A stretch of DNA of 36,803 nt, taken from Sphingopyxis sp. DBS4. Its GTDB lineage: Bacteria > Pseudomonadota > Alphaproteobacteria > Sphingomonadales > Sphingomonadaceae. The translations under genes were made by a program, and so were the position numbers. The DNA is taken from assembly GCF_024628865.1 (NCBI RefSeq), contig NZ_CP102387.1:1-36803 (forward strand). Direction: 5' to 3'. Shown in pieces: positions 2,793 through 28,728 of this stretch. The notes beneath the pieces were generated by a model, which did not search any database, was not told the DNA's origin, and was given only the letters and a program-made list of their open reading frames with translations. Each line of letters starts with the position of its first letter. Position 1 is the stretch's first letter.

Positions 2793-2800
2793 GTTTAAAC
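2793..2800. repeat. GTTTAAAC backbone motif, copy 1
   Basis: The 8 bp core GTTTAAAC followed by GCC, in non-coding DNA after the hairpin array. It is the only copy lacking the leading C of CGTTTAAACG. Confidence 0.6.
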
Positions 2801-3042
2801 GCCGCGCCCAACCATCCAGCTCACCGCCAAGCCGAACCGTCCAATTGGCTTTCCAGAAAAGCCATGCGGATAGCGCGGCGATCAACATGAGAGGGCAGGG
2901 GAGACGGAAACGTCCCCGCAGGCGCGATTTCCGGCCCGCCCAGCCCCTTTTCAGGCGTCAGGCAAGGGGTGAGAGGGTCAACCGCCCACGGCGCTCTACG
3001 GGCCTCCCAGGCGGCCGATTTTCCGACGCGAGATCCTCGCGC

Positions 3043-3637
<595 letters not shown>

Positions 3638-3643
3638 ACGCCT

Positions 3644-5323: not shown

Positions 5324-5450
5324 CAGGACTCCCTCCCATTATCATTTTTCCAGATATCCAGCGCGGATCATGGCCGAGCCGCCCTCGCGGCTTCGCGTTC
5401 TCCCAGGCTGGTGAAATAGTCCCGCACCGGCGCGCCGCGACGCGGCGATA

Positions 5451-6008
5451 TCAGCCATCTTGCTTGCCAATCCGTGCGCGAACGAACCGCACACGCTCGG
5501 AAACAGGGGCGAGGGGAAGCGTCACCAGCTCGTAGCCAAGGCCGGCATAAACCGCGACCATCGCCTCATAGGTCGCCTGTGCTTCCGCGAAGTCCTGTTT
5601 CCGCTCCGCGTCGGCTGCGAAAATCTCTCGCCAGGGCGGGGCGATGAACACGCGGCGCTGATAGCGGAACAGTTCGGCCGCGCGATCGGCATGGGCGGGG
5701 ACCGGCAAGCCGCACAGGCGCAGATAGCCGATCACATCGGGCACGCCGCGATCGAAGATCACCGGCCCCGCGCGATCATGGGCCTCGTGCCAGGAGCGCA
5801 ATTCCCAACCCAGCATCAATTCCGCGAAGGCGGCGCGATCGGCCCAGGGCAGGGCGGTGCCGCCAATCGCGACCTGATCGCGGATGATGGCCCGACCGGC
5901 TTCGGGCATGTGGTGGAACCCCTCCGCCGCCAATGCTTCGATCAGGGTGCTTTTGCCGGAGCCTGGACCGCCGGTGATGATGTAGAAATCGGGTGGATCG
6001 GGCAGCAT
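5451..6008 (-). CDS. AAA family ATPase/kinase (AAA_28-like) in tra operon
   Basis: A 185-residue P-loop protein with Walker A GGPGSGKS at about residues 12-19 and a FDRGVPD motif near residue 85, as in NadR-kinase-like AAA_28 proteins. A YQRRVFIAPPWREIF segment matches the lid region of the same family. These proteins phosphorylate small molecules or nucleotides; the substrate here is unknown. The start follows the TGA of the upstream 87 aa gene by three bases (TGA TTG ATG), so it is clearly in the same operon. It may be a cargo gene rather than a transfer function. Confidence 0.8.
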   Translation of the reverse strand: MLPDPPDFYIITGGPGSGKSTLIEALAAEGFHHMPEAGRAIIRDQVAIGGTALPWADRAAFAELMLGWELRSWHEAHDRAGPVIFDRGVPDVIGYLRLCGLPVPAHADRAAELFRYQRRVFIAPPWREIFAADAERKQDFAEAQATYEAMVAVYAGLGYELVTLPLAPVSERVRFVRARIGKQDG

Positions 6009-6011
6009 CAA

Positions 6012-6275
6012 TCAGCGATCTTCGGGCACGGAAATACGGGTGATGCCGGGAGCGGCGGCGATGGCGGCCACCAGGCTATCGACGGTTTCCATCCGATGGC
6101 TCGGCCAGTCGCGCGACGCATCGACATAGCCGGCATCGGTCTGGACAGCGATGCGGGCGGTGGCGGGAAGCAGATCGAGCAGCGCCGCGAGCTTGTCCTG
6201 AATGTCGGGCGTGATCCGGTCGAGGCAGGGACCGACAAGAAGGAGCTGCCATGAGCGGGGCGGGGTGTCCGTCAT
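6012..6275 (-). CDS. Conserved 87 aa protein of the tra operon
   Basis: Starts MTDTPPRSWQLLLVGPCLD and ends in GITRISVPEDR. The start is chosen because AAGGGAGG precedes the ATG with ideal spacing and the ATG overlaps the traD stop (ATGA). Longer in-frame readings would run through traD in a shadow frame. I do not recognise a named family. Predicted mixed alpha/beta with a conserved-looking hydrophobic N-terminal strand. Tight coupling to traD and the ATPase suggests an accessory role in mobilisation, but the sequence does not show one. Confidence 0.7.
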   Translation of the reverse strand: MTDTPPRSWQLLLVGPCLDRITPDIQDKLAALLDLLPATARIAVQTDAGYVDASRDWPSHRMETVDSLVAAIAAAPGITRISVPEDR

Positions 6276-6586
6276 CGTTGTTCCTCCCTTGTCGTTTCCT
6301 CCGCATCGAACGCGCGTTTGCCGCGCCGCTTCCAGAGCGCGAGAACGGTGCCGGCGTCGTCGGCCTGGACGCGCGCGGCGCAATCGAGCATCGCGCCGTA
6401 GAGGGTGGCGCGATCGTCGTCGGCCAGCTCGACCAGGCCGGCTTTCTGGACGAGGCCGCCCAGCTCGATCAGGTGGCGGGTGCGTTCGCGTCGGGCCACG
6501 ACCCAATCCCTCGTATCGGTGCGGCGCGCAGCGGCTTCAACGCGGTGCCTCGCCTGCGCCAGTTTCGTTTCCGTCTTTGCCGTCAT
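6272..6586 (-). CDS. traD: Conjugal transfer protein TraD (Ti-type)
   Basis: A 104-residue protein beginning MTAKTETKLAQARHRVEAAARR. It contains the TraD (pfam06412-like) core RDWVVARRERTRHLIELGGLVQKAGLVEL, followed by helices found in alphaproteobacterial TraD. It is a small accessory protein of the relaxosome/coupling complex. The internal ATG at 6586 is preferred because upstream codons overlap traC. It overlaps traC by about 50 bp and the downstream gene by four bases, indicating a compact operon read away from oriT. Confidence 0.83.
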   Translation of the reverse strand: MTAKTETKLAQARHRVEAAARRTDTRDWVVARRERTRHLIELGGLVQKAGLVELADDDRATLYGAMLDCAARVQADDAGTVLALWKRRGKRAFDAEETTREEQR

Positions 6587-14210: not shown

Positions 14211-14465
14211 ATGACCCTGACCCGAGAAACCCTTGTTCGCGGCCTCAAGATCGCGCTGACGCTCGCCCTGGCGGTACTCGCGGCCCTGATCTTGTGGCAT
14301 CTCTACAATTACTACACCTATGCGCCGCAGACGCGCGATGGAAAGCTGCGCGCCGATGCCGTTCCGCTTGCCGCCGACGTCTCGGGGCGCGTGGACTCGG
14401 TCGCCGTCCACGACGGGCAGATCGTGGAGAAAGGGCAATTGCTCTTCACGATCGACAAGGGGTGA
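14211..14465 (+). pseudogene. HlyD-family efflux adaptor, truncated by Tn3
   Basis: An N-terminal fragment of about 83 codons: a signal anchor at about residues 12-33 (LKIALTLALAVLAALILWHLY), then the HlyD biotinyl-lipoyl motif TRDGKLRADAVPLAADVSGRV...VHDGQIVEKGQLLFTID. Full-length adaptors have about 300 residues. The reading frame meets the left inverted repeat of the Tn3 element at 14459 and stops four bases beyond it. The rest of hlyD, and any outer-membrane channel gene, is not found on the other side, so the pump lacks its adaptor here. Confidence 0.9.
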
Positions 14466-14514
14466 CTACACGAAAGTGACGCAACTGCACGGTAAGGGCG
14501 AACGGATAGCGAAC
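14459..14514 (+). repeat. Tn3 left inverted repeat, 56 bp
   Basis: Begins GGGGTGACTACACGAAAGTG and matches the complement of 18612-18667 at 54 of 56 positions. It is longer than the usual 38 bp Tn3 ends. Confidence 0.95.
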
Positions 14515-14515
14515 G

Positions 14516-17473
14516 TCACGCGGCGAGCAAGGAGCTGACGGCGCGCAGCGGCCGCAAGGCATCCGGATCTGGGCGATCTTCGACATTCCAGCTATAGTCC
14601 CCTGTCAGCGAGATGTGCTCCCAGCCCAACGGTGCGATGTGGCGTGCGATCTCGTCGGGCGTACCGATGTCAGCCAACGCCATTTCGAGATAGCGGGTGT
14701 TCCACAGGATGATGGCGGCGACGAGCAGATTGAGGCCCGATGCCCGATAAGTCTGGTTCTCGAAGCGCCGATCACGCAGCTCGCCGAGTTGGTTGAAGAA
14801 GAGCGCGCGGGCGAGCGCATTGCGGGCTTCACCCTTATTGAGGCCCGCCTGGGTGCGCCGGCGCAGGTCAATGTCGCGCAGCCAGTCGAGCATGAAGATC
14901 GAGCGTTCGAGGCGGCCAAGCTCGCGCAACGCGAGGGCCAGTCCATTCTGTCGGGGATAGGCGGACAGCCGGCGGAGCATCGCCGAAGCGGTGACGGTGC
15001 CGGTGCGGATCGATGTGGCGAACCGCAGCAGTTCGTCCCAATGCGCGGCGACATGACCCAATGCGATCGGCTCGGCCGTCATGCCAGTGAGCAGCTGGCC
15101 AGATTCCTGGCCAGGCAGGAGGTGCAAGCGACGCTCCCTGATATCGCGGAGGCGCGGCGCGAAGCGGTAGCCGAAGAAAGGCATGAGGCCGAACACATGG
15201 TCCGATGCCCCGCCTGTATCGGTGTAGTGCTCCTCAATCGTCAGGCCGGTCTGATGATACAGCAAGCCATCCAGCACATAAGGCGCTTCGCCGGCAGTCG
15301 CCGCGATCACCCTGCTCGCGAAGGGATCATATCGATCCGAGACATGGGTGTAGAAGGCGACGCCCGGTTCGTTGCCGCTGCGTGCGTTGATGTCGCCGAT
15401 CGCGGCCCCACGACCGCCAGCGTGAAATTGCTGTCCGTCGCTCGACGAAGTGGTGCCGTCTCCCCACAGCGCGGCGAGTGGCATGGCGCGATGGGCGTCG
15501 ATCAGCCTTCCCAGCGCTTCGCCATAAGCGGCCTCGCTAATATGCCAGTCGTGAAGATGGGCGAGCTGACGCAGACTTGCGCCCCGGCAGGTTTCCGCCA
15601 TCCGCGTGAGGCCGAGATTGATGCCGTCGGCGAGGATGACGGTAAGCAGGGCATTGCGATCGTCGGCTTCCCTACCCGAACGCCGGTGGATGAAGCATTC
15701 GCTGAACCCGGTCCAGGCATCGACCTCAAGCAGAAGATCGGTGATCTTCACGCGCGGCAGTCGATCATAGGCGGCGCGACGGGCAATCTCGGTGGCGGGC
15801 GGCGTTGCCGCCTTCAGCGGCGAGATGATGAGGCCGTTTTCGTCAAGCCTCACCTGGGGCAGCTCGCCCTGACGCGCGAGGATCGTCACCTGTTCGATCG
15901 CCGTGTCGAGCCTGGTGCGCCTTTCCTCGATATGGCGCTCGAAATCCGTTTCGATGGCTAGCGGCAAAGGCCCCTTCTCGTGAAGCGCCGCAAAGGTCGC
16001 CGGCGGGATGAGATAGCTGTCGAAATCGCGAAACTGCCGGCTTCCCGCGACCCAAATGTCTCCCGCTCGCAGCCGTTCACGTAGCTGCGACAGGGCGCAT
16101 AGTTCATAGGCGGCACGATCGACGATGCCATCGCGCAGGACGAACGGCCGCCATGCGGACGGCACAAAGCGCAGCGGCACGCGATCAGGCAAGCGCCTTT
16201 TGCCGGTCTGGTAGAGCTCCGCGATGATGGCCAGCGCTGACAGGAGCCCCTGCACCGCACCGGCGCCGCGAAATTCAAAGGTGTTGAGAAAGGCACCGGC
16301 AAAGAGCTTCACAGTGCGATGCCGCTCGATCAATTCGGCCGTGCGATCGACGGTTTCCGGTCGCCCGAGCACTTCGGCCTGCTCGACGGCCACGGCGAAG
16401 CGCTGCCAGTCCAGCGCCTCGATCTGCGCCAGAAAATCCACGCCCTTGGTGCGCGCGTCGATGAGGAGCCGGCAAGATCCCGTGAGCGTCCGGAGATGGC
16501 CTTGCAGCTCGCGCACCGTCTTTAGGGCTTTGTCGCGAGTCCGGTTCTCGGCGCGGCGCGCCATGCTCCCCAACAGCTTGTCGAACATCGTCAGGGCCGC
16601 GTCGGTCAGGCTTTCCTCAAGGCGGATGCCGGTTGCCGCCAGTGTTGCATGTCTCCGTAGGGCATTGAGTTCGCCAAGGTGCTGGGGCGTGATGCGGCTG
16701 CCTTCGTCCGCCAGCCTGTCAAAAGTCAAAGCCGGGATCATGTCGGCACGGGCGCGATCGAGGCCCAGCGCGCGGACATAGGCGAGCCGTTCGATCAGGC
16801 GCAGGATGTTGCGCGCTGCCGGCGACTGTGGCGCATTGCGTAGCCAGGATAGCCATGTGGTGGCCTGCCCCGACCGTCGCGCCAGCAAATCGTCCAGGCC
16901 CTGTAGTGTGTCGGGCAGCAGGCCATTTGTGAGCACTTCATAGGTAAGCTGTTCAGCTTGCTGGCGAGCCCGTCGCAGTACCGCTTCGAGAATCGACGAA
17001 GAAGGCAGGAGGATCTGCCGACGGCGGAGTTCATCGACGATGACCCCTGCCATCTGGCCGGGATGGATGATGGTCTGCGCGATCGGGATCGAGAAGGCGA
17101 CAACTTCACGGAAGGCGTCGCGGTCGAAGATCCTGAACCCGTGCGATCGTCGGATTTCAACGAGATGCTCGCGACGGGTCTGGTCCCGATGAGCATAGGC
17201 CGCAAAGGCTTCAGGCGCGATGTCGAGTTGCTGCGCTACATAGGCGAGCACAGGAGCGGGCGGGACTTCGCCCGCTTCCAGCGCACGGCCAGGCCATCTC
17301 ATAGTGAGCAGGAGCATCGCGAAACCGAGCCGGGTGGCATCGCCGCGACGGCGGCCGACAATTTCCACGTCGTCGCTGGTCAGCGTATAGTGCCGCGCAA
17401 TCTCGCGCTCATCGAGCGGCGCGCTATAATGCCCCGCCCAGATTTCCGGGCTCACCAGTCGCCGTCTCGCCAC
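14516..17473 (-). CDS. tnpA: Tn3 family transposase TnpA
   Basis: A 985-residue DDE transposase of normal Tn3-family length. The N-terminal DUF4158-type domain (MARRRLVSPEIWAGHYSAPL) is followed by the long C-terminal catalytic domain. Likely catalytic acids are the D in LWGDGTTSSSDGQ (about 690), the D in HYTDTGGASDHVFGL (about 765) and the E in LNKGEARNALARALFF (about 900). It recognises the 56 bp inverted repeats and makes cointegrates. The gene stops about 2 bp inside the left repeat. The frame is intact, so the element may be active. A divergent promoter shared with tnpR lies in the res region. Confidence 0.96.
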   Translation of the reverse strand: MARRRLVSPEIWAGHYSAPLDEREIARHYTLTSDDVEIVGRRRGDATRLGFAMLLLTMRWPGRALEAGEVPPAPVLAYVAQQLDIAPEAFAAYAHRDQTRREHLVEIRRSHGFRIFDRDAFREVVAFSIPIAQTIIHPGQMAGVIVDELRRRQILLPSSSILEAVLRRARQQAEQLTYEVLTNGLLPDTLQGLDDLLARRSGQATTWLSWLRNAPQSPAARNILRLIERLAYVRALGLDRARADMIPALTFDRLADEGSRITPQHLGELNALRRHATLAATGIRLEESLTDAALTMFDKLLGSMARRAENRTRDKALKTVRELQGHLRTLTGSCRLLIDARTKGVDFLAQIEALDWQRFAVAVEQAEVLGRPETVDRTAELIERHRTVKLFAGAFLNTFEFRGAGAVQGLLSALAIIAELYQTGKRRLPDRVPLRFVPSAWRPFVLRDGIVDRAAYELCALSQLRERLRAGDIWVAGSRQFRDFDSYLIPPATFAALHEKGPLPLAIETDFERHIEERRTRLDTAIEQVTILARQGELPQVRLDENGLIISPLKAATPPATEIARRAAYDRLPRVKITDLLLEVDAWTGFSECFIHRRSGREADDRNALLTVILADGINLGLTRMAETCRGASLRQLAHLHDWHISEAAYGEALGRLIDAHRAMPLAALWGDGTTSSSDGQQFHAGGRGAAIGDINARSGNEPGVAFYTHVSDRYDPFASRVIAATAGEAPYVLDGLLYHQTGLTIEEHYTDTGGASDHVFGLMPFFGYRFAPRLRDIRERRLHLLPGQESGQLLTGMTAEPIALGHVAAHWDELLRFATSIRTGTVTASAMLRRLSAYPRQNGLALALRELGRLERSIFMLDWLRDIDLRRRTQAGLNKGEARNALARALFFNQLGELRDRRFENQTYRASGLNLLVAAIILWNTRYLEMALADIGTPDEIARHIAPLGWEHISLTGDYSWNVEDRPDPDALRPLRAVSSLLAA

Positions 17474-17494
17474 GCATCATCTCCTTCGCTTTGC

Positions 17495-17612
17495 GAGTCC
17501 GTCAGACGGTCCTCTGGCGGTCAGCATGAATATGTCCGTCAACTCTGGACCCGCGATGGCGATTCGGACAAGAATGCAAATTGATGGGAAAACGGACAGA
17601 TTGGGACCGGTC
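17495..17612. promoter_or_regulatory. res site / tnpA-tnpR control region
   Basis: About 120 bp between tnpA and tnpR contains repeated, oppositely oriented GTCCGTC/CGGACA half-sites (GTCCGTCAGACGG, TGTCCGTCAAC, TTCGGACAAG, AACGGACAG). This is the arrangement expected for a three-subsite resolvase target with overlapping promoters. Subsite boundaries are approximate. Confidence 0.7.
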
Positions 17613-18170
17613 GTGGCACTGATCGGCTATGCGCGGGTATCGACCGGCGATCAGAAGCTGGCGCTTCAGCATGACGCGCTGAATGTGGCCGGATGCGAGC
17701 GCATCTTCGACGACCATGCGTCCGGCGCCAAGACCGATCGGCCTGGCCTGGCCGAGGCGCTCGCCTATCTGCGTACCGGCGACACGCTGGTGGTCTGGAA
17801 ACTCGATCGTCTTGGGCGCTCAATGAGCCATCTGATCGAGAAAGTCGGCGAGCTTGCGGCGCGCGGCATCGGATTCCGCTCGCTCACCGAAAACATCGAC
17901 ACTACCACTTCGGGCGGGATGCTGGTGTTCAACATCTTTGGCTCGCTTGCCCAATTCGAGCGAGATCTAATCCGGGAACGCACCCATGCTGGCCTCAAGG
18001 CCGCGCGCGATCGGGGTAACAAGGGTGGTCGCCGCCCTGTCGTCACCCCCGACAAGCTACGCAAGGCGCGGGCGCATATCGCAGCGGGCCTAACTGTTCG
18101 CGAAGCCGCCGCGCGCCTCAAGATCGGGAAGACAGCTCTCTACAAGGCACTGGAACAAAAAACGCCATGA
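17613..18170 (+). CDS. tnpR: Tn3 resolvase TnpR (serine recombinase)
   Basis: A 185-residue resolvase. The catalytic serine is in ALIGYARVSTGDQ (about S10). Then come LVVWKLDRLGRS, the SLTENIDTTTSGGMLVFNIFGSLAQFERDLIRERT segment and a C-terminal helix-turn-helix (LTVREAAARLKIGKTALYKAL). GTG 17613 gives the standard resolvase length; in-frame starts further upstream (from 17526) would translate through the res site. It resolves cointegrates at res and normally represses tnpA/tnpR. Its stop overlaps the passenger gene start (ATGA). Confidence 0.92.
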   Translation: MALIGYARVSTGDQKLALQHDALNVAGCERIFDDHASGAKTDRPGLAEALAYLRTGDTLVVWKLDRLGRSMSHLIEKVGELAARGIGFRSLTENIDTTTSGGMLVFNIFGSLAQFERDLIRERTHAGLKAARDRGNKGGRRPVVTPDKLRKARAHIAAGLTVREAAARLKIGKTALYKALEQKTP

Positions 18171-18589
18171 ACTTGGGAATTACCTGCATGCTGTCGGAAC
18201 ATCGAGCGTTGCTCCGCAAACTGCTATTGCCGCTACTCTGTGCCCTCAGCGGATGCGCCACGGTCCAAGAGGCCGCAGATGCGCTAGAATATGCATGTGG
18301 AGACCTTGCCGTTGTCGGACGCATAGTGACGATTAGCTCAAAGGCCAGTCCCGGCTCCGATGGTCTGCCAAATTGGCGGAGCCAGTATAACCTTCAAGTA
18401 CGGATCAAACGAGTGATCCAAGGTAAGGAAAACAGGCATATAGTTCCCGCATCAGCAATCGCTCATGCGCAGATACGCGATGATCGGGACTTTCTGGCTG
18501 TTCTTCGTCCCGATGGGGAAGGTGGCTACACCCTCATGACAGCCAACCTGTGGGCATATCGTCCGAAAATAAGCGGACCGTGTTCGTAG
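18167..18589 (+). CDS. Putative lipoprotein, passenger of the Tn3 element
   Basis: A 140-residue protein with an N-terminal signal sequence and a lipobox LCALSGC (Cys about residue 30), so probably a lipoprotein. The mature part (GDLAVVGRIVTISS..., RSQYNLQVRIKRVIQGKENRHIVPAS, FLAVLRPDGEGGYTL) resembles a small beta-rich domain of periplasmic hypothetical proteins. I do not recognise a named family. The ATG overlaps the tnpR stop, so it is translationally coupled to the resolvase and lies inside the right inverted repeat. This makes it a genuine transposon passenger rather than a neighbour. Confidence 0.75.
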   Translation: MNLGITCMLSEHRALLRKLLLPLLCALSGCATVQEAADALEYACGDLAVVGRIVTISSKASPGSDGLPNWRSQYNLQVRIKRVIQGKENRHIVPASAIAHAQIRDDRDFLAVLRPDGEGGYTLMTANLWAYRPKISGPCS

Positions 18590-18611
18590 CGGAAATCTGC
18601 CCGCCACATGT

Positions 18612-18667
18612 GTTCGCTATCCGTTCGCCCTTAGCGTGCAGTTACGTCACTTTCGTGTAGTCACCCC
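18612..18667 (-). repeat. Tn3 right inverted repeat, 56 bp
   Basis: Ends ...CTTTCGTGTAGTCACCCC. It is complementary to 14459-14514 with two differences. Confidence 0.95.
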
Positions 18668-18748: not shown

Positions 18749-19078
18749 TCAGACACCATCGCGTCCGGGTGAGGGTTCAAGGGCGCGACTGACGGTTTCT
18801 GTATCAACGACACGGGCGCAGAGGCGAGCGGCAACTTCCAGCCCCTTGGCGTGATCGGCAGGCTCCATGTCTGCCGTGGCGTCGGAGACGAGGAAAGCGC
18901 GCATGTCGCGCATGTCGCGCATGAAGGCATCGATGGCCGAGCAATGGCAGCCGATCGAGGTATAGACGCCGACGATCAGGATTTGATCGCGGCCGAGCCG
19001 GCGAAGCAGCACCTCGAAATCGTTGCCGTAGAAGGCGCTGTAGCTCCGCTTTGTCAGAAGGCGGACGGGGAGCCCGTC
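18749..19078 (-). pseudogene. Isochorismatase, C-terminal part (interrupted by 19079-25849)
   Basis: Codes for DGLPVRLLTKRSYSAFYGND...RLGRDQILIVGVYTSIGCHCSAIDAFMRDM..., the C-terminal half of an isochorismatase-like hydrolase. The catalytic Lys is in LTKRSYSAF, and GVYTSIGC resembles EntB/PhzD (GVYAHIGC), which carry Gly where cysteine hydrolases have the nucleophile. It therefore looks like a true isochorismatase rather than a nicotinamidase-type enzyme. Joining it to 25850-26139 after removing one 8 bp duplication gives a continuous frame of 612 bp (203 residues), a normal domain length. The gene was intact before the insertion. Confidence 0.88.
19071..19078. repeat. 8 bp target-site duplication, left copy
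   Basis: AGCCCGTC, identical to 25850-25857. It lies exactly where the isochorismatase frame breaks. Confidence 0.88.
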
Positions 19079-19486
19079 GCAACCGTCCGGACGATGCCCA
19101 CCAATGCTGAACGGTGCGACGCTGCGATGCGCTATTATCTGCAGCGGGCACGCAACGACACGGTCTGGGGCTGGGCCATGATCCATATCTGCGCACACGG
19201 TCCACTTTTTGGCGCGAACACTTTCACTGCAGCGCACCAGACGATCGAGGCAGGCATTGAAAGCGGCGAGTTCGACGTGAGCGATGCACAGATCGGCCGG
19301 GACCTCGTTCTTGGCGCCGCTTATGCCGCGATGACCAACCATCTGCGAAACGCGGATGCGCCCATTGTCGATGGCTTGGTCTCGGCGTATGTCCTGCGCG
19401 GCCTCGGCGTTACCAAGGAGCGCATCGCCCGGCTCGTGGCCCGCGACTTGCCTCCGATCAAGCTTCCGCCGTCCGAGTTGCTCTAG
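19079..19486 (+). pseudogene. TetR family regulator, 5'-truncated
   Basis: Reads ...MPTNAERCDAAMRYYLQRARNDTVWGWAMIHICAHG...TFTAAHQTIEAGIESGEFDV...ERIARLVARDLPPIKLPPSELL. This is the ligand-binding C-terminal part of a TetR-type repressor. The N-terminal helix-turn-helix is missing because the transposable unit begins within the gene. The sequence upstream in the same frame is antisense to isochorismatase and is not TetR. Without a DNA-binding domain it should be non-functional. Its stop overlaps the stop of the convergent flavin reductase fragment. Confidence 0.75.
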
Positions 19487-19895
19487 GCGCAGCCAGGCAG
19501 CGGCGCGATCTTGTCGGTCGCATGATAACCGCCACGGTGGCAGAGAAGCGGCGCTTCATCCAAGCCCCGTGCTAGCGCTGAGACTTCGCCGACGACAAGC
19601 AGATGATCGCCCAGTTCGATCACTCGCATGATCTCGCACTCACCCCCAGGTAAGGAAACGACCGGTCCAGGCGATCGCCTGCCGAGCACCATGCCCCGCC
19701 GCTCGACATCGCTTCGGCATTCTCGCACATCAGCGTTCATCCAGGCTGCCATTCCAGATTCTGGATTGCCCCCCGGTCGCCCGCTCGTCGACATCGCCAA
19801 TCATGACACTGGGCCGGCGGCGGCGAATGCCTGGGCCGTCGCGCCGTCCGTGATGAGAACGGCTGCAGGCATCTTCCGAATGTCTTGCCATCCTA
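19483..19895 (-). pseudogene. Flavin reductase-like fragment with in-frame stop
   Basis: The C-terminal part reads LPGGECEIMRVIELGDHLLV...GEVSALARGLDEAPLLCHRGGY, the end of a FMN-binding flavin reductase domain (compare GDH.I..GEV...PLL.HRG.Y). In the same frame upstream are KMPAAVLITDGATAQAFAAAGPVS and then a TGA near 19803, so the gene is broken. The middle is poorly conserved. It probably once supplied reduced flavin to an oxygenase in this catabolic cluster. Confidence 0.5.
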
Positions 19896-19959
19896 TGCTT
19901 CCACGATGGTCGCATGCCGCTGATTGTCGAGGCCGGTCTTGATCATGTCTGCCGCCTTC

Positions 19960-20501
19960 TCGGCGATCCGCGCTCGTAAAATCCTCGGCATAGGGATAAC
20001 CGGCCTCGCGACTGGCCCCAATGAAGGCGCGCGATAGAGGATGGTTGCTTTCGGCCCGAGAGACCGGCAGCGGGCTCTGGCCACCGTGGAGCGCATCGCC
20101 GCCGCGCGCGAAATGCTCGGCCTTACGAAAATAGGGGAGGACATCATCCCAACCCCAGCCTGTTAGTCCGGTGGACTTCCATTGCTCATAGTCGAGTGGG
20201 TGGCCGCGGACATAGACATACCGTTGATCGAAGAGGATCCGCCCCAGACCTTCCCGCGAGGCCAGCTGATGCGCCGTCCTGCCAGATTAGCCTGGGGTTC
20301 GGTCTCGAAGCACCAGTTGAAATAGCGCTGCGTGAACCAGTAACCGGCCACGATCGGCACCTGGAGCAGCGGCTGGCGATCGCGTCCTCCTGCCTCGCTC
20401 AAGAGGATCTGGGCTCCGGGGTCTTCGGACAAACGATTTGCAAGGACACACCCCGCTGACCCGGCGCCAATGATGATATAGTCGAAGCCTTTTCCACCCA
20501 C
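19960..20501 (-). pseudogene. GMC oxidoreductase, frameshifted and truncated
   Basis: Starts (GTG 20501) with the FAD-binding Rossmann motif FDYIIIGAGSAGCVLANRLSE, then RGKVWGGSSSINGM. At about 20217 one base appears to be missing: the expected MVYVRGHPLDYEQW continues in the next frame as YVRGHPLDYEQWKSTGLTGW...LPYFRKAEHFARGGDALHGG. The match runs to about ...EDFTSADR (near 19975) and then ends. Only about 180 of about 530 residues remain and the C-terminal catalytic domain is gone. Originally an FAD-dependent alcohol or choline-type dehydrogenase. Confidence 0.75.
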
Positions 20502-20590
20502 TGTCTTCGCCCTCTCATTGGCGACCCCTCTCGCATGGGGAACGAGCCTGTTCGGCGGCGTGCGCGTGCCCCGATCGAGATGCGCGTAGC

Positions 20591-21481
20591 CTAGATCGGT
20601 CGCGCGCCGACGCGATCCTCGCCAAATTCGTTGATGGTCGCCCGACGCAGATCCCGCCGGTCCTCCATGTACGCATATTCGGTCGCGCGATGCATAGTGC
20701 AGCGATTGTCCCAGATAACGAGGTCGCCGGGCAGCCATTTGTGTGAATATATATACTCCGGTCGGCTGGCATCCGAGACCAACTTGTCGAGCAGGGTCCG
20801 CCCGGCCGCCTCATCCATGCCGACAACGGTTGCGGCGTGTGCGCCGATATAGAGAGCCTTACGGCCCGATGCGCTTGTCCGTACAAGTGGCTGTGTCACC
20901 GGCGGAAAGGCGCGATCGAAAACAGTCGTGCCGGTGAGGCCACCCCTTTCGCGCGAGTAGGTGAGACTGTGAATGACGCTCAGTGGTTCGACCTGCTCCT
21001 TCATCGAAGGCGACAGCGCATCATAGGCTGCCCGTGTATCGACAAATTCGGTATTGCCCCCCGTGGGCGTGACGACGTGGGCCAACAACATCGACCATTT
21101 GGTCGGCAGGTCATTGAATGAGCTGTCCGTATGGAAGAGCTCGTTGCCCTTGGCGAACTTGCGGCGCAGCGTATCGGGTTTGTCCAGATTGCCGTTCTCG
21201 TCCAAGTTCGACACGTCGTAGAGTTTCGGATGGACGCGCGTCGGCCTCGTCCTCTCCGACATGCCGAGATCGGGCGGCAACTCCAAGGGCCCGAATGCCT
21301 TAGCAAAGCGGACCTGATCCTCGTCACTCGCGGCCGCCTGATCGCGGATAACCAGCACGGCATATTTGGCCATCGCATCTTCGACGGCATTTCTCGTTTC
21401 ATCCGTCACCGGCTTGAGGATGTCGCAACCGAACATTTCTGCCGCAAAGATCGGATGCAGCTGATTGACCTGGAATGGCAT
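20591..21481 (-). CDS. TauD/TfdA family Fe(II)/2-oxoglutarate dioxygenase
   Basis: A 296-residue enzyme with the full fold. The iron-binding HxD is in ELFHTDSSFN (about H117/D119), the distal His is in NRCTMHRATEY (about residue 265), and the 2-oxoglutarate-binding Arg is in RRDLRRATI. AAEMFGCDI near the N-terminus and TRAAYDALS are further family elements. TfdA-like enzymes cleave ether, sulfonate or other bonds by hydroxylation. The substrate is not determinable, but amidohydrolase, GMC dehydrogenase and flavin reductase neighbours suggest catabolism of an aromatic or ether compound. It is the second gene of a minus-strand operon, 46 bp after the amidohydrolase, and appears intact. Confidence 0.9.
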   Translation of the reverse strand: MPFQVNQLHPIFAAEMFGCDILKPVTDETRNAVEDAMAKYAVLVIRDQAAASDEDQVRFAKAFGPLELPPDLGMSERTRPTRVHPKLYDVSNLDENGNLDKPDTLRRKFAKGNELFHTDSSFNDLPTKWSMLLAHVVTPTGGNTEFVDTRAAYDALSPSMKEQVEPLSVIHSLTYSRERGGLTGTTVFDRAFPPVTQPLVRTSASGRKALYIGAHAATVVGMDEAAGRTLLDKLVSDASRPEYIYSHKWLPGDLVIWDNRCTMHRATEYAYMEDRRDLRRATINEFGEDRVGARPI

Positions 21482-21527
21482 GGCTTTTGGATCCTCTTAT
21501 CGCAGCCCTTTTGTGTTGTCTCGTGCC

Positions 21528-22727
21528 TCACGCCGCGACCTTGGCAACTACGAGATCGAGCTTGCCCTTCACCGTCGCCTTCGAAACGTCGAGGCCGTAG
21601 AGCCGCGCCGCGTTTCCACCGACCAGGGCGCGCACCGTCTCCTCCGGCAGATGCCCCATCGTCTTTGAGATAGTGAGCTGGCTGTTGGGCCAGATGCTGT
21701 CCGGATGCGGATAGTCGCTCGCCCAGAGAAGATTGTCGGGGCCCCAGAACTCGAGCAGCCGCATCGCCGTCGGACTCTGCTGGAAGGTGCCGTAGACCTG
21801 CTCGCGAAACAGTTCCGAGGGTTTGCGCTTGTGCGGGATGCCGCCGCGGTCCTTCCAGAAATCGGCGCATTCCCAGAGGCGGTAGTGCCGATAGTCCATT
21901 TCCTCGATGACCCAAGGGACCCAGCCCACCCCGCATTCGGCAATCACAATCTTGAGCTTGGGGTGACGCTCGAGGATGCCCCAAGCGAAAAGATCGACAA
22001 AAGGATCGAGGAACTGTTCGATGAACATCTTCCCATGGAGGAAGGTCGCTCCCGGGCTCCCCTTATATTTGTCGAAGGCCTTTGAGACGTTCGCAAAGAC
22101 GGTCACGTGGAAGGAGAGGATAATTCCACTCTGCTCCAGGAGGTCGAACAGCGGTTCCCAACGCTTGTCCTCGAGACTGGGCTCGACCATCGCGATCTGG
22201 ACGTTGGCCTGGCGAACGCCACCGCGGATTGCGAGGCGCTTCAATTCTTCATAGGCCGCTTCCGGATGAGGTGGTAGCATCGCCACACCCAACAGGCGAT
22301 CGGGCGCCGCGGAAGAGAATTCGTCGAGCAGCCAATCATTATAGGCTGCATAGCAGGCCCGCAGCAGGTTCTCGTCATCAGTCTTGATCGACGTCACCGG
22401 CCCGAAGATGAGCTGTGCCCACACACCATCGCGCTCCATGTCCTGGAGGCGAAGCGCCGGCGTGCCTGCCCGCAACTCACTCGTATCAACAATCCCGCCG
22501 CGATCGTAGGCGGTCAGGAGCGGTTTTGGTCCGGCGGAAACAACGCGCTTGCCTGCCCACATTCCCCAGATCTGCGATCCGGACACCCATGCCGCCTTGC
22601 CGTCTCGCTCCTCGATATGTGGAACCTCATCACCCCAGGACGATGCGAGCCGATTTGTCCAGATGTCGGCCGGCATCATGTTCAAATCGAGATGATCGTC
22701 GCAGGAAATGAGGACGGCTTCGATCAT
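21528..22727 (-). CDS. Amidohydrolase family 2 metal-dependent hydrolase (ACMSD-like)
   Basis: A 399-residue protein of the amidohydrolase-related family containing ACMSD, LigW and similar decarboxylases/hydrolases. Visible elements are N-terminal ISCDDHLDL (metal site, in place of the usual DxHxxE), LLGVAMLPPHPEAA, SFHVTVFAN (metal His), KLKIVIAECGVGWVPW, and the C-terminal metal Asp in LLWASDYPHPDSIWP followed by GGNAARLYGLD. The full length suggests activity. AGGAGAGAGCC precedes the ATG. First gene of the catabolic operon, read from a duplicated 27 bp promoter segment. Likely acts on a ring-cleavage or aromatic acid intermediate (inference). Confidence 0.9.
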   Translation of the reverse strand: MIEAVLISCDDHLDLNMMPADIWTNRLASSWGDEVPHIEERDGKAAWVSGSQIWGMWAGKRVVSAGPKPLLTAYDRGGIVDTSELRAGTPALRLQDMERDGVWAQLIFGPVTSIKTDDENLLRACYAAYNDWLLDEFSSAAPDRLLGVAMLPPHPEAAYEELKRLAIRGGVRQANVQIAMVEPSLEDKRWEPLFDLLEQSGIILSFHVTVFANVSKAFDKYKGSPGATFLHGKMFIEQFLDPFVDLFAWGILERHPKLKIVIAECGVGWVPWVIEEMDYRHYRLWECADFWKDRGGIPHKRKPSELFREQVYGTFQQSPTAMRLLEFWGPDNLLWASDYPHPDSIWPNSQLTISKTMGHLPEETVRALVGGNAARLYGLDVSKATVKGKLDLVVAKVAA

Positions 22728-22765
22728 GGCTCTCTCCTATGATTAGCTTCTGCAAAAGTAGATAT

Positions 22766-22819
22766 AATGTTACGCATATCTGTGCAAGGGAGAATGTTAC
22801 GCATATCTGTGCAAGGGAG
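22766..22819 (-). promoter_or_regulatory. 27 bp perfect tandem duplication in the catabolic promoter
   Basis: Two exact copies (22766-22792 and 22793-22819) begin AATGTTACGCATATCTGTGC. On the minus strand each offers a TTGCAC -35-like element, and sequences such as TAACAT/TATATC lie about 15-17 bp downstream. The copies lie between the divergent amidohydrolase and MarR genes. Duplication could add a second promoter or operator. Confidence 0.65.
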
Positions 22820-23088
22820 TAAGCGTCTGCGAAGGCGAATGGACCACTCAAGTGCGCTGAAAGGGAGGCGGGTTTTACGATACCTCCGTGCGGAGCGAAG
22901 CTGATGGCCGCCACGGATTGGTGCGTTGCACGCGGGCTGCCAAGCGCATTATTGCAGATTCTCGCAACGCCTTGCGAGAGCCGCGATACTGGCCTGCGCA
23001 AGTTAACGAGGTGTCTTTTGGCCGATTGCATCAAACAACGTTCACGCACAGAGATGAACGTAGATTGCTGGAAGTGCAGGGAGTGTTC

Positions 23089-23303
23089 ATGTCCAAAGTG
23101 AGACCTCCTCTCTTCGAAGACGCTCCGCAGTATGGCGACCATTATCCGACCAACTCTCGCATCGAACGAGAGTTTCGCGCTATTTTCTTGATACTGCGGG
23201 CGGGCCGTCACTGGACAAAATGGGTCGACCAGCTGCTCGCCGAAAGATGCGAGCAAAGCCGCGTTCGCTGGGAGACTTTATCGGCCATCGCATTCGCCGA
23301 GGG
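23089..23303 (+). pseudogene. MarR family regulator, truncated by IS66
   Basis: Starts MSKVRPPLFEDAPQYG, with AGGGAG five bases upstream of the ATG. Residues 33-70 (FLILRAGRHWTKWVDQLLA, RVRWETLSAIAFAEG) match the first helices of MarR proteins. The IS66 left end at 23304 cuts it off before the DNA-binding helix, so about half is lost. Divergent from the amidohydrolase operon, it was probably its local regulator. Its missing 3' half is not elsewhere in the window, consistent with IS66 having carried only one flank. Confidence 0.7.
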
Positions 23304-23338
23304 GTAAGCATACGCCGAGTACCGCGGCGCAGTTTGGA

Positions 23339-25003
23339 TCAGGCGGCGAGCGCGACTTGGGCGGCCTTCCAATTCCACGGGAGCAGTTCGTCGAGGCGGC
23401 TGACGGGATGGTCGGCGATGCGGGCGAGGACGTAGGCGAGCCATGCCTGCGGATCGACGTTGTTGAGTCGACAGGTCAGGATCAGCGAATAGGCGACCGC
23501 CGCCCGCTGGCCACCGCGATCCGAGCCGCAAAACAGCCACGACTTGCGCCCGAGAGGCACGCAGCGCAGTGAACGCTCGGCGGCGTTGTTTGAGAGACAG
23601 ACCTTGCCATCGCTGAGGAAGCGGGTGAACGCGTCCCAGCGGCGCAGCATATAGTTGATGGCCTTGGCGAGGTCGTGGTTGCGCGAGATCCGGGCCAGCT
23701 GCGCGTTCAGCCATTTGTGGAGCTCGGCCATCAACGGCGCGCTGAGTTCCTGACGGACGGCGAGGCGCTCGGCCGGGCTCTTGCCATTGATGTCGCGCTC
23801 GATCGCGAACAGGGCGTCGAGCTTCTGCACGGCCTCGAGCGCGATCGGATAGACGATCGGCGCCTTCTTGCCGCGGCTCTTCTTGCGTGCCGCGCCCTCG
23901 ACGTCGGCGAGCTCGAAAAACTTCCTCCGCGCGTGCGCGAAGCATCCCGCCTCGAGGATCGGCCCGGGCTGCCGGTTGGGCGCATAGAGCTCATTGTAGC
24001 CGCTATAGGCGTCGGCTTGCAGAATCCCTGACCAGGCCGTGAGGTGGCGCCGTGGATGGTCGCCGCATCGGTCGCGGGAATAGTAGAAGACGACCGAGGG
24101 CGGATCATTGCCCCCGAAGGGTCGATCGTCATGCACATAGTTCCATAATCGACCGGTGACGGTCTTGCCCTTGGCCATGACCGGCACGGTGGTATCGTCG
24201 CCGTGCAGGCGCTCGGCGGCGAAGGTGTGGCCCTCCATCAGGTGGAAGACTGGCATGAGCGCCTGACAGGCCGCACCGATCTGGTCAGCCAGTGTTGACA
24301 CGCTGAGCGGCACGCCTTCGCTGGCGAAGCGCTCGGCCTGGCGGTGGAGCGGCTGATGCTGGCCGTACTTGTCGAACAGCAGCATGGCGAGGAAGCTGGG
24401 GCCAGCCCATCCGCGCGGGGTGACGTGGAAGGGTGCGGGCGGCTGCGTGATCTTCTCGCAATCCCGGCAGGCGAACTTCTCACGCACCGTCTGGATGACC
24501 TTCCACGAACGCGGGATCACCTCGAGCGTCTCGGTTATATCTTCGCCGAGCTTCGACAGGCGCCCGCCCCCACAAGCCGGGCACGAGCACGGCGCGGGCA
24601 CGACGACGCGCTCGCGCGGCAGGTGGTCGGGAAATGGCTTCCTGACCGGCTTCCTGCGCTGGAAAGCGGAAACGGTTGCCGTCATTGCCGCGGCGGCTTC
24701 GGCGGCGAGTTCGTCCTCGGCCGCGTCGGCTTCGAGGTCTTCGAGCCGGAGCTCAAACTGCGCGAGCAGCCGCTCCGTGCGTTCGGCACTGGGGCCGAAC
24801 TGCTCACGCCTCAGCTTGGCGTTCTGCAGCTTGAGGTGTGCGATCAGCGCTTCGGTGGCGCTCGCGAGGGCGCGGGCGTTGGCCAGCTCGGCCTCGACGC
24901 TTGCGGCGCGTTGCTCAGCCTCGTCAGCCCTCAGAAGCGCCGTTGCGAGGAGCGCCTTGAGCGCATCGGCGTCGTCCGGAAAGGGCGAAACGGCGGCTTC
25001 CAT
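23339..25003 (-). CDS. tnpC: IS66 transposase TnpC
   Basis: A 554-residue DDE transposase. Order: an N-terminal coiled-coil leucine-zipper-like region (about 5-60), the zinc-finger segment CSCPACGGGRL (about 137-147), the catalytic core beginning HGDDTTVPVMAKG (first Asp about 275), the middle ADAYSGYNELY, and the C-terminal IS66 domain FLSDGKVCLSNNAAERSLR. SWLFCGSDRGGQRAAVAYSL then DPQAWLAYVLARI completes the family pattern. Full length and uninterrupted. It stops 35 bp from the left end. Confidence 0.95.
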   Translation of the reverse strand: MEAAVSPFPDDADALKALLATALLRADEAEQRAASVEAELANARALASATEALIAHLKLQNAKLRREQFGPSAERTERLLAQFELRLEDLEADAAEDELAAEAAAAMTATVSAFQRRKPVRKPFPDHLPRERVVVPAPCSCPACGGGRLSKLGEDITETLEVIPRSWKVIQTVREKFACRDCEKITQPPAPFHVTPRGWAGPSFLAMLLFDKYGQHQPLHRQAERFASEGVPLSVSTLADQIGAACQALMPVFHLMEGHTFAAERLHGDDTTVPVMAKGKTVTGRLWNYVHDDRPFGGNDPPSVVFYYSRDRCGDHPRRHLTAWSGILQADAYSGYNELYAPNRQPGPILEAGCFAHARRKFFELADVEGAARKKSRGKKAPIVYPIALEAVQKLDALFAIERDINGKSPAERLAVRQELSAPLMAELHKWLNAQLARISRNHDLAKAINYMLRRWDAFTRFLSDGKVCLSNNAAERSLRCVPLGRKSWLFCGSDRGGQRAAVAYSLILTCRLNNVDPQAWLAYVLARIADHPVSRLDELLPWNWKAAQVALAA

Positions 25004-25063
25004 GAACGAAGTGAATCATCCCCAGGCCCCGAGGGCAAGCCGAAAATGCGCGGTCTTGTGAAG

Positions 25064-25405
25064 TTATCCGGCACTCTGCGGACGCCAGCTATACTGCGGG
25101 TTGCGCCAGTCGATCCCGTCGAGCAGGCAGGCCAATTGCGAACTCGTCAGCGACACCACGCCGTCCTTCGCGGAGGGCCAGATGAACTTACCCTTCTCGA
25201 GCCGCCGTGTGTACAGCGACATGGCAATCCCATCATGCCAGATAATCTTTATCAGCGATCCGGAGCGGCCCCGGAAGACCCAGAGATCGCCGGCGAACGG
25301 GTCCCTGGTGAAGTGCTGCTGGACCATCGCCGCCAGGCTCTGCATCCCGCGCCGCATATCGGTATGGCCCATCGCGATCCACACCCGCGCACCCGACGGG
25401 ATCAT
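25064..25405 (-). CDS. tnpB: IS66 accessory protein TnpB
   Basis: A 113-residue Orf2 protein starting MIPSGARVWIAMGHTDMRRG and containing DPFAGDLWVFRGRSGSLIKI and DGIAMSLYTRRLEKGKF, the invariant TnpB motifs. Length is normal. The ATG overlaps the tnpA stop, and upstream in-frame codons are tnpA shadow. Required with TnpA for transposition of IS66-type elements; its molecular role is not known. Confidence 0.95.
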   Translation of the reverse strand: MIPSGARVWIAMGHTDMRRGMQSLAAMVQQHFTRDPFAGDLWVFRGRSGSLIKIIWHDGIAMSLYTRRLEKGKFIWPSAKDGVVSLTSSQLACLLDGIDWRNPQYSWRPQSAG

Positions 25406-25758
25406 CGCACCGCCCTCAGCGCAGCCGCTGCCAACGCCGGCGGCGTCGATGCCGAAATGCGCATCCGCCGACCATCGGTCAGCTCCAGCACGATCGCCGC
25501 TTCCGGCTCGGTCGGTGCGGTGGGGACCACGGCCGGCTCCGGCGTATTGTCGATCACCGCCGGGACGAACGCCTCTTGCACCCGGCGCAGAGCCGCACGA
25601 CGCCACTGATAGATCAGGCTACGAGAGACGTCGTACCGCCGCGCAACGTGCTGGACCTTGGCACCAGGCGAAAACGCCTCACGAAGAATCTCGAGCCGTT
25701 CCTCATCCGACCAATCCCGGCGGCGAGCAGCCCCCGTCAACACCGTCACCTGCGTCAT
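25402..25758 (-). CDS. IS66 accessory protein TnpA (helix-turn-helix)
   Basis: A 118-residue protein starting MTQVTVLTGAARRRDWSDEERL. It carries a helix-turn-helix AKVQHVARRYDVSRSLIYQWRR (about residues 34-55) like other IS66/IS3 OrfA proteins. It likely binds the element's ends. An inverted repeat GTCCTTAAG/CTTAAGGAC (25763-25798) lies just upstream of its start and may be its operator or promoter control. Confidence 0.93.
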   Translation of the reverse strand: MTQVTVLTGAARRRDWSDEERLEILREAFSPGAKVQHVARRYDVSRSLIYQWRRAALRRVQEAFVPAVIDNTPEPAVVPTAPTEPEAAIVLELTDGRRMRISASTPPALAAAALRAVR

Positions 25759-25849
25759 GGCTGTCCTTAAGCGCGTCCTTATGTGCGACCTTAAGGACGT
25801 CCTGCGCACTCCTCTGCGCTTCGGCAAGCGGGTCAGGCCGGACGGTTAC

Positions 25850-25857
25850 AGCCCGTC
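25850..25857. repeat. 8 bp target-site duplication, right copy
   Basis: AGCCCGTC directly after the IS66 right end; same as 19071-19078. Confidence 0.88.
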
Positions 25858-26139
25858 AAACCTAAGCTCCGGATCGAGGGCGTCACTGGCGGCGGTGGGT
25901 CCCCTGCCCCACATATCGAGCATTAGGCCACGCTCGCGCGCGTCCTGCGCCGGCACCTGGGAAGCGAAGATCGGGATTCCGCGCGCGATGCACCCCATCC
26001 CGATCGTCTGCACGTTGGCGACAAGCTGGCGGCGACAAGCCTCGGGAAGTGCGCCGAGATAGTGCGGCTGCATGTCGTGGATCAGCAGCGCGCAGCGGCC
26101 GGGCTCGATAGCCCAGCTCACCTTGTTCGAGAACGTCAC
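25850..26139 (-). pseudogene. Isochorismatase, N-terminal part (interrupted by 19079-25849)
   Basis: Starts GTG at 26139 with GGGAGG about 10 bp upstream. Codes for WAIEPGRCALLIHDMQPHYL (catalytic Asp in LLIHDMQ), IPIFASQVPAQDARERGLML, then DMWGRG...DPELRFDGL. These match the N-terminal half of EntB/PhzD isochorismatases, which convert isochorismate to 2,3-dihydro-2,3-dihydroxybenzoate or a related diene. Translation meets a TAA in the IS66 end. The frame continues perfectly at 19070 once the insert is removed. Confidence 0.9.
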
Positions 26140-27152: not shown

Positions 27153-28090
27153 TCAATCTCGGCTCGCCTTTGATGAAAGGGCGAGGATCGTATCGACATC
27201 GATATGTCGTTCGAGTTCGGCGGCAAGACCATCGAGCGCGGCATCGACCGAGGCGTGATAATCGACGCCCGCGCCATTGCCGCCGAGCCGCGCGATCCAT
27301 GCTGCCCGCTGCCGGGCATCCGCCAGCAGCCCATGAAGATAGGTGCCCGAGACCAAGCCGTCTGCGCTCACGGCACCATCGTTGCGGCCGCTGTCGAGCC
27401 GCACGAGCGGGCGCTCTGTATCGGGACCAAAGGTAGCGCCGATGTGCATCTCATAGCCCTCACACCGCGCGCCCAGCGCCTCGCCCGCGACCCGCCGCAA
27501 CGTCTTTTCTCCAGCTAGCACGGTTTCGACATCAAGCAGGCCGAGGCCCGCCACATCAGCCTGTGCGCCCTCGATGCCGTCCGGGTCTGCGATGCGCTTG
27601 CCGAGCATCTGATAACCACCGCACAGGCCCAAAACCGCGCCGCCATGACGATGGTGGGCGAGGATATCAATGTCCCAGCCTTCGCGCCGGATCGCGGCAA
27701 GATCGGCGATGGTCGCCTTGGAGCCCGGCAGCACGATCAAAGCAGCCTCGACCGGGATTGGCTGACCCGGGGAAATCATCGCCAATTCTATGCCCGGTTC
27801 GAGCTTGAGCGGATCGAGATCGTCGAAATTGGAGATGCGCGGCGTGACGAGGCAGGCGATGAGCAATCGGCCGGAGGCGAGCGCTTGCCGCCTTTCGAGC
27901 ACGACCGCATCCTCGCTCGGGAGCCGCGCGCACTCTGCGAGCCACGGCACCACGCCGAAGCCGGGCCAGCCCGAAAGGCGCTCGATGTCGCGATAGCGGT
28001 CCTCGAACAGCGCGGGATCACCGCGAAACTTGTTGATGAGGAATCCCTGGATCATCGCCGCGTCTTCGGGATCGATCCCCGGCTGCGGGA
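27153..28090 (-). pseudogene. cobQ: Cobyric acid synthase CobQ, C-terminal fragment
   Basis: About 312 residues, beginning at IDPEDAAMIQGFLINKFRGD. It contains the end of the N-terminal ATPase domain and the whole class I glutamine amidotransferase domain: VLPGSKATIADL, GGAVLGLCGGYQMLG (nucleophile Cys) and SGTYLHGLL (catalytic His). CobQ amidates adenosyl-cobyrinic acid diamide in B12 synthesis. The N-terminal P-loop portion (about 170 residues) is missing. The fragment is in frame with the start codon of the adjacent btuB fragment, so a chimeric protein could be made under riboswitch control. Confidence 0.85.
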
Positions 28091-28382
28091 TCGTTGAAGT
28101 CGATCCCGTCCACAAAGACCAGCGTGTGGTTCGCCTCCGCTCCGCGAATGCGTATCTGGGTGAGCGAGCCCTGCGTGCCCGATGACGCGACCGTGAGGCG
28201 GATAAGGTCGAGCGCGAGGGGCTGGCCCAGTGACTCGATCGTCTTGGCATCGAGCTGGAGGCGGGCACGTCAGCGGACGCTACGGGCACCAGCGCAGCGG
28301 TAACGACGATATCGGGCGGCACCGCGCCGTCCACGGTGACAGGTCCGGCAGCGGCAGCGGCAAGAAGTAGGGCGATGGGCAT
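28091..28382 (-). pseudogene. btuB: TonB-dependent cobalamin receptor (BtuB-like), 5' fragment fused to cobQ
   Basis: ATG 28382 has GGAGG upstream and a signal peptide MPIALLLAAAAAGPVTVDGA followed by DIVVTAALVPV, a TonB-box-like start. After about residue 35 the plug-domain sequence continues in another frame: LQLDAKTIESLGQPLALDLI, SLTQIRIRGAEANHTLVFVD, GIDFNDPAAG. This is typical BtuB plug. So there is a frameshift or small deletion near 28270 and then a junction to cobQ at about 28090. The barrel (about 500 residues) is absent. Confidence 0.8.
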
Positions 28383-28499
28383 GGAAATTCCTCCGGGTAA
28401 TGCGACATACGTTGTCGCCCCAGAGGATCGGCACGGTCCCGCCAAAGGCCCACACTTCTCCACGCGCTTGCGGCTGGACCCGGCCGGGCGCGGACGACG

Positions 28500-28648
28500 G
28501 CGAGGGTAGGTTCCCGACTTGCCGGCTCAACCCGAAGGCTCGCGCACTGGCATTACGGTTGCGGGCACAGCGCCGGAATCACACCGGCTTCCCTTTTCAC
28601 CGTCCCCCCGCATCCGCCCAATGGCAGCGCGTGGACGGCACCTTCGCT
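28500..28648 (-). promoter_or_regulatory. Cobalamin (B12) riboswitch
   Basis: Read on the minus strand: an AGGTGCC element near 28642, GGGAAGCCGGTG, ATTCCGGCGCTGTGCCCGCAAC, GCCAGTGCGCGAGCC (B12-box region) and a closing GGGAACCTACCCTC. This is the conserved order of the cobalamin riboswitch aptamer. It lies about 120 bp upstream of the btuB start codon, the normal position for repression of B12 uptake genes. The aptamer looks complete even though its target gene is broken. Confidence 0.88.
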
Positions 28649-28728
28649 TAGCGTACTGCTTAAGGGTGGGCGGAAAGGAGTGTCAATGTGAAGAAGGCCA
28701 GTTATGGGCACGCTCGCCATTATCTGGG

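Follow-up and report, generated by a model that had tools for sequence, protein, structure and literature searches.

A 6,771 bp IS66 unit on a Sphingopyxis plasmid with a putative surrogate left end inside a captured tetR gene

The window analysed here, a stretch of 36,803 nucleotides from Sphingopyxis sp. DBS4 that is one of the five contigs (C4) of a 4.9 Mb genome, contains a 6,771 bp unit (19079-25849) framed by perfect 8 bp repeats (AGCCCGTC). It is very probable that this unit came about when an IS66 element residing in a marR gene took a surrogate left end within a nearby tetR gene in place of its own left end, and moved onto a plasmid as a single piece with the genes lying in between. 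A prior sequence-only reading had proposed that IS66 moved 4.2 kb of neighboring DNA by means of a surrogate left end; this is still the best-supported reading in view of the empty target site, the alignment of TetR homologs and the break in marR, and each coordinate and sequence that it gave was right upon re-checking.

The unit starts with GCAACCGTCCGG and finishes with the complement of GTAACCGTCCGG, and its right boundary coincides with the right end of the IS66 (Table 1). The identical 8 bp noticed earlier at 19071 and 25850 were confirmed as AGCCCGTC at 19071-19078 and 25850-25857. An exact empty site is found in plasmid pSHV2 (NZ_CP020541.1) of Sphingobium herbicidovorans MH, in which the flanks of the window are contiguous at one copy of the 8 bp, indicating a target duplication of the length expected of the IS66 family; 8 bp is the value given for two IS66 elements in a table of PMC3281130, in the portion of that paper available. 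The annotated isochorismatase gene of pSHV2 is intact at 612 bp, and its two parts in the window (18749-19078 and 25858-26139) likewise amount to 612 bp. The proposal that this gene is split exactly at the unit and that its parts rejoin to a 612 bp frame is thus borne out by an uninterrupted counterpart with a single 8 bp copy, the very locus for which a search had been suggested. The flanks are 100% identical to pSHV2 over 413 bp on the left, where the match stops at another transposon, and over 3,037 bp on the right; the whole right-hand match extends to 3,877 bp at 99.95%, and a further match of 7,543 bp stands at 99.9%. With flanks this nearly identical, the unit would seem to have inserted recently and as a whole. 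The segment 19079-23303 joined to the isochorismatase gene without IS66, an arrangement singled out beforehand as contradicting the capture, was not found in the collections searched, and pSHV2 is devoid of the whole segment. The genome itself has a single copy of the unit and no second near copy of it or of its IS66, the two IS66 transposases encoded on contig C1 being only 42% identical; nothing like 19079-25849 was found among the plasmids searched.

Table 1. Features of the unit and of its target gene, in window coordinates
Feature	Position	Strand	Evidence or remark
3' part of target isochorismatase gene, 330 bp including left 8 bp copy	18749..19078	-	PF00857, E 8e-19; equals pSHV2 4752-5081
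Left copy of 8 bp target duplication AGCCCGTC	19071..19078	.	single copy at pSHV2 empty site
Putative surrogate left end GCAACCGTCCGG, tetR codons A-T-V-R	19079..19090	+	11/12 with IS66 right end; A invariant against 13 homologs
C-terminal part of tetR, N-terminal half missing	19079..19486	+	PF21306; 69-71% to P0002 and P0003
N-terminal piece of broken GMC oxidoreductase gene, continues in another frame	20163..20590	-	PF00732, partial
TauD/TfdA-type alpha-ketoglutarate dioxygenase, 296 aa	20591..21481	-	PF02668, E 1.7e-63; best solved relative 5bke
Amidohydrolase, 399 aa	21528..22727	-	PF04909; full-length relatives up to 77% identical
marR, 5' part up to the IS66 insertion	23089..23303	+	72 aa, 76% to P0015 (172 aa, MarR domain)
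IS66 own left inverted repeat, apparently bypassed	23304..23325	+	24-26 bits; 23.2 bits with matrix of other copies; same end in L120
tnpC, IS66 DDE transposase, 554 aa	23339..25003	-	PF03050; NF033517 above cut-off
tnpB	25064..25411	-	PF05717 (longer frame); NF033819 above cut-off
tnpA (start codon set by eye)	25402..25758	-	NF047595 above cut-off for 25402-25764
Right inverted repeat of IS66, bounding the unit on the right	25828..25849	-	same right end in S. xenophagum pSH1 copy L082
Right copy of 8 bp target duplication AGCCCGTC	25850..25857	.	pSHV2 empty site
5' part of target isochorismatase gene, 282 bp	25858..26139	-	identical to pSHV2

The first 12 bp of the unit (GCAACCGTCCGG, 19079-19090) are identical to the right end read inward (GTAACCGTCCGG, 25849-25838) in 11 of 12 positions, just as had been noted; in a background of 1,628,354 positions, taken from the 56 loci L025-L080 on both strands, the right end is matched at 11/12 or better 7 times, or about 4 per million. 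The position of 19079 is fixed independently by the 8 bp duplication, and its likeness to the right end is above chance. The claim that the captured segment starts inside a TetR gene also holds: homology to TetR extends to codon 1 of the unit, the DNA before 19079 is the pSHV2 isochorismatase sequence, and the TetR C-terminal domain recognized by Pfam begins shortly after the left boundary. In an alignment of the window's own protein with 13 homologous proteins the residue A encoded at 19079 is invariant. The nearest homologs, P0002 and P0003 (69-71%), read A-T-V-Q-x-M-P-T-N-A-E-R where the window has A-T-V-R-T-M-P-T-N-A-E-R, with 10 of the 12 residues the same; the A-T-V is common to only 2 of the 13 homologs, the other eleven keeping the A and varying after it. 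Because the two nearest homologs have A-T-V at the start of the unit, the 12 bp at 19079 look like native tetR sequence rather than an IS66 remnant, the A-T-V evidence being at the level of codons and not of bases. A second IS66 remnant at this position, which had been named beforehand as a case against the capture, was rejected on the TetR alignment, with the 12 bp falling on codons of the two nearest homologs.

The putative surrogate was further compared with IS66 ends by means of 22 bp matrices, one of left ends and one of both ends, built from 25 IS66 copies that include the copy L120. Over 22 bp the site at 19079 scores -3.2 (left ends) or -6.0 bits (both ends), ranking 91 or 108 of 73,564, and over the outer 12 bp it scores 8.9 or 9.1 bits, ranking 13 or 10 of 73,584. 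In this comparison of IS66 ends with 19079, which had been suggested as a check, the site does well only over its outer 12 bp. We count against the surrogate reading that the site is a poor end over 22 bp (-3 to -6 bits; 3.6 bits when scored leave-one-out), weak over the inner ten positions and similar to an IS66 end only over the outer 12 bp. Terminal repeats starting with GTA are present at 25849 and at the inner end 23304, whereas the outer left end starts with GCA.

The right 2,546 bp of the unit are an IS66 element encoding the family's TnpA, TnpB and DDE TnpC, all three above the NCBI cut-offs (NF047595, NF033819 and NF033517 respectively). Its own left end at 23304 (GTAAGCATACGC) agrees with the right end in 8 of 12 positions, and to that extent it does match less well than the surrogate, as claimed earlier; however, it is neither weak nor degenerate, scoring 26.0 bits by the matrix of left ends and 24.1 by that of both ends, higher than any other site in the window. 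The same left end is found in L120 (82% in tnpC), 37 bp from the tnpC match and with a duplication of its own (GCTGTATC), and a second genome has a 49 bp stretch that matches it at 90%. By these comparisons the left end at 23304 is intact and canonical. Being the best 22 bp end and one that is used by L120, it indicates that the element had a good left end which was left unused; apparently, the IS66 passed over a good end in favor of one that is both weaker and far away. On the same grounds we rejected the idea that the bypass was due to degeneracy of this end. An isolated left end of the window's type is also seen in L137 (G139:C64, 127-174), on a contig without a transposase match, and is either a remnant or a miniature element.

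On the other side of this junction, the 72 residues that precede 23304 are matched at 76% by P0015 (172 aa), which extends beyond the break, and therefore IS66 interrupts marR there, exactly at 23303, confirming that the captured segment stops where IS66 breaks this gene. Among 75 loci containing relatives of the amidohydrolase (L006-L080, a wider set than the 56 genome-contig loci that were fetched), 7 have a MarR homolog near the amidohydrolase gene; in six of the 75 (L012, L071, L017, L079, L076 and L032) an intact marR homolog of 170-175 aa is divergent as in the window and free of IS66. L012 gives the same values as L071, and L017 the same as L079; each pair probably represents a single genome, which leaves about four independent loci among the six. 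The occurrence of an intact, divergent marR beside the amidohydrolase elsewhere makes the pair look like the original neighborhood.

The cargo is partly decayed, with the TauD-type dioxygenase and amidohydrolase frames at full length and the GMC oxidoreductase gene broken, which qualifies its earlier description as 4.2 kb of catabolic DNA. The closest solved structure to the dioxygenase, 5bke, is named a 2,4-D dioxygenase. A perfect 27 bp tandem repeat in two copies (AATGTTACGCATATCTGTGCAAGGGAG, 22766-22819) lies between marR and the amidohydrolase gene and is possibly a duplicated operator or promoter.

A donor with tetR, the cluster and marR together was not found in the same genome, the plasmids, the family and order genomes or the amidohydrolase loci, which counts against the preferred explanation. 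The cluster was not found elsewhere in the genome or, by DNA comparison, among plasmids, where a search with the TetR protein reached at best 45%. In 298 genomes of the family none of the matches listed reaches the tetR or marR ends; in 396 genomes of the order 12 have a TetR match, the best being at 40% apart from the window's own. None of the 75 loci L006-L080 has a TetR match, and 7 of them have a TauD relative near the amidohydrolase. The suggested search for a TetR...MarR cluster with IS66 in marR but without the boundary at 19079 thus found none among the matches listed for these genomes and plasmids.

The following series of events would account for these observations. An IS66 would have inserted in marR beside an amidohydrolase-tauD-GMC-tetR cluster, as suggested by the break in marR and the intact marR-amidohydrolase neighbors elsewhere. 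The transposase would then have paired the true right end with the look-alike in tetR, 4.2 kb beyond the element's own left end, which at the level of sequence was passed over though intact and canonical. Everything between would have moved as one 6,771 bp unit, capture and present jump probably being one and the same event, and the unit would thereby have entered the isochorismatase gene of a pSHV2-like plasmid, with the 8 bp duplication that is evident from the empty site.

We surveyed IS66 copies in the window and in 79 regions chosen from longer lists, 8 plasmid loci and L217. Of the 87 copies examined 52 were distinct and resolved (i.e. identical 8 bp plus ends matching at 15/24 or 10/12), 32 were not, and 3 were repeats. 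L102 stands outside the 87 and gave no pair when looked at separately; L129 is counted as unresolved, its repeats matching at 7/8, yet it is among the 25 matrix copies, whose high outer scores are partly by construction. In each of the 51 other resolved copies the paired ends are flanked by identical 8 bp, a condition that the pairing rule itself imposes; the median distance between left end and tnpC match is 146 bp. In five of them (L188, L182, L184, L217 and L180) the left end is more than 1 kb from the tnpC match, so that long cargo alone is not unique. With left-end matrices made without the copy being scored, the window's inner end reaches 23.2 bits and its outer end 3.6 bits; the best inner site in the 51 others is at 10.5 bits (L217), and the window's outer left end is the second weakest of 52, the only lower one being that of L209 (-8.8 bits), from a divergent subgroup. 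Thus, among the 52 resolved copies only the window is seen to have kept a left end that was bypassed. Scanning for inner sites that resemble the ends of the copy itself had no power and missed even the window's inner end. The search for further IS66 units with displaced left ends that had been suggested yielded cargo-bearing copies, such as L180 (5.66 kb) and L217 (2.36 kb), and recovered no retained inner end above 10.5 bits.

A possible second displaced IS66 left end is that of L194 (G434:C22; oriented with tnpC on the minus strand; sites at 6960, 7241, 7411 and 13026), which has a pair 6.1 kb out at 8/12, two inverted right-end-like sites near that displaced end and an end-like site 52 bp from tnpC; unresolved copies reach 8/12 by chance, and L194, being at chance level by the rule, is uncounted. 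Four further copies (L123, L140, L142 and L145) have canonical left ends with unequal flanks and no distant partner within the fetched stretch. L180 (G365:C47, 7381-15637), from the same genus as the window, and L217 (Porphyrobacter sp. YT40 pYT40, 1507-6466) share the same 24 bp at each end and an identical first 72 bp of the left end, and have separate 8 bp duplications. The cargo of L180 includes genes for a chromate transporter and a superoxide dismutase among others, and that of L217 an annotated aminoglycoside acetyltransferase and a serine hydrolase, which looks like an exchange of cargo between fixed ends. An empty site for L180 was not found in 80 genomes of the genus.

The closest rival explanation shares the capture by a surrogate end with the preferred one and differs only in timing, and the confidence placed in the two accordingly overlaps: the unit could be an older, settled tIS66 (an IS66 with cargo on the tnpC side) for which 19079 was already the established left end and which has now moved whole into the plasmid. 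Cargo-bearing IS66 elements do exist, both in the survey (L180, L217) and in print (ISPa75), and with one known copy of the unit its age cannot be read off, a single insertion fitting either timing. Against this, none of the other 51 resolved copies has an inner left end above 10.5 bits, the outer left end of the window is at 3.6 bits second from the bottom among the 52, and both the cut marR and the cut tetR are still recognizable; we therefore regard an older origin as rather unlikely, though deserving of consideration.

Two other rivals dispense with the surrogate altogether. The 11/12 match of the 12 bp at 19079 to the inverted right end might also be expected of a composite transposon, in which a second, inverted IS66 at the left had been deleted down to its last 12 bp. 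However, 10 of the first 12 residues of the unit, A-T-V included, agree with P0002 and with P0003, the sequence past the 12 bp does not follow an IS66 end, and instead of two flanking IS copies there is one IS66, with the left boundary on tetR codons, making a composite origin highly improbable. Likewise, the 8 bp duplication taken alone would fit a plain insertion of IS66 in the isochorismatase gene, with the 4.2 kb arriving later in an event of its own. Such a second event would have had to join exactly at 19078/19079 and 23303/23304, mid-gene on both occasions, and the added DNA would by chance have begun with an 11/12 copy of the right end; this course of events can hardly be entertained. 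An IS66 alone in the isochorismatase gene between copies of AGCCCGTC was not found in the searches of the same genome and of plasmids.

The preferred reading, a one-step capture through the surrogate end, relates the unit to several previously described systems. Cargo-bearing IS66 elements are already described as tIS66, e.g. ISPa75 with fosZ, and 7 of 25 Pseudomonas IS66 members are stated to carry passengers, in the available part of PMC12888890. The window's unit resembles them in its IS66 transposase genes, tnpC-side cargo, IS66-type ends and target duplication (PMC12888890, same part); its 4,225 bp of cargo lie inside the duplication, between the tnpC side and the far end, with the empty site known. 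It differs in its multi-gene cargo and in keeping both an inner left end and a native surrogate site, as against the one cargo gene of ISPa75, for which the same part of PMC12888890 reports neither a bypassed inner end nor a native surrogate site. For ISEcp1 and ISPme1, both of the IS1380 family, capture through the misreading of ends has been described, and in their modules a single IS copy moves adjacent DNA upon taking a look-alike for the true end (accessible portions of PMC9330008 and PMC3281130). The noted resemblance to ISEcp1-type units accordingly extends to the surrogate end and the adjacent DNA, but not to the transposase, which is of another family (IS66 TnpA/TnpB/TnpC in place of IS1380) and goes with an 8 bp duplication. 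One-ended transposition of IS801/IS91 similarly recruits adjacent DNA once the usual terminus is missed (PMC3189936, in the part available), but IS91 elements move by a rolling circle and without direct repeats (PMC9330008, likewise), unlike the window's unit with its 8 bp duplication. The sequence-only reading knew of no such IS66 unit; this requires amendment for cargo-bearing tIS66, described in the accessible part of PMC12888890, and stands for those with a surrogate end, of which a literature search that reached few subscription papers found none.

Thus, the existence of cargo-bearing IS66 elements, including one spreading a resistance gene, is already known, and PMC12888890, in its available portion, speaks of capture but not of how it occurs. 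What the present unit adds are legible steps of capture, namely an empty target, source genes severed at both junctions, inner and outer, and a good inner end that went unused, and it illustrates how IS66 elements may acquire cargo. We tentatively suggest, as a possibility somewhat short of an even chance, a general route in which IS66 transposases pass by a left end that is intact and join the right end instead to a right-end-like 12-mer lying far off, whereby plain IS66 elements would become tIS66, the window representing an intermediate stage and older tIS66 having later lost the inner end. A second, unrelated IS family would then stand beside ISEcp1 as a single-copy gene mobilizer, and end bypass by IS66 is now directly testable by a transposition assay.

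Outside the unit, further pieces of the backbone are only 78-90% alike between the window and pSHV2, indicating that the two plasmids are mosaic relatives. The region 14461-18665, with a 985 aa ORF resembling a Tn3 transposase and a resolvase-like ORF (named by eye), stands in the place of about 5.5 kb of pSHV2 (38,793 through the origin to 4,668), as though a transposon had come in and the DNA around it had been lost. To the right of the unit there is a cobalamin riboswitch (RF00174, 61.5 bits, 28488-28660, minus strand), and the ORF at 27153-28463 appears by eye to be a fusion of what remains of a TonB receptor gene and of a cobyric-acid-synthase-like gene; the annotation of pSHV2 has a TonB plug-domain fragment nearby.
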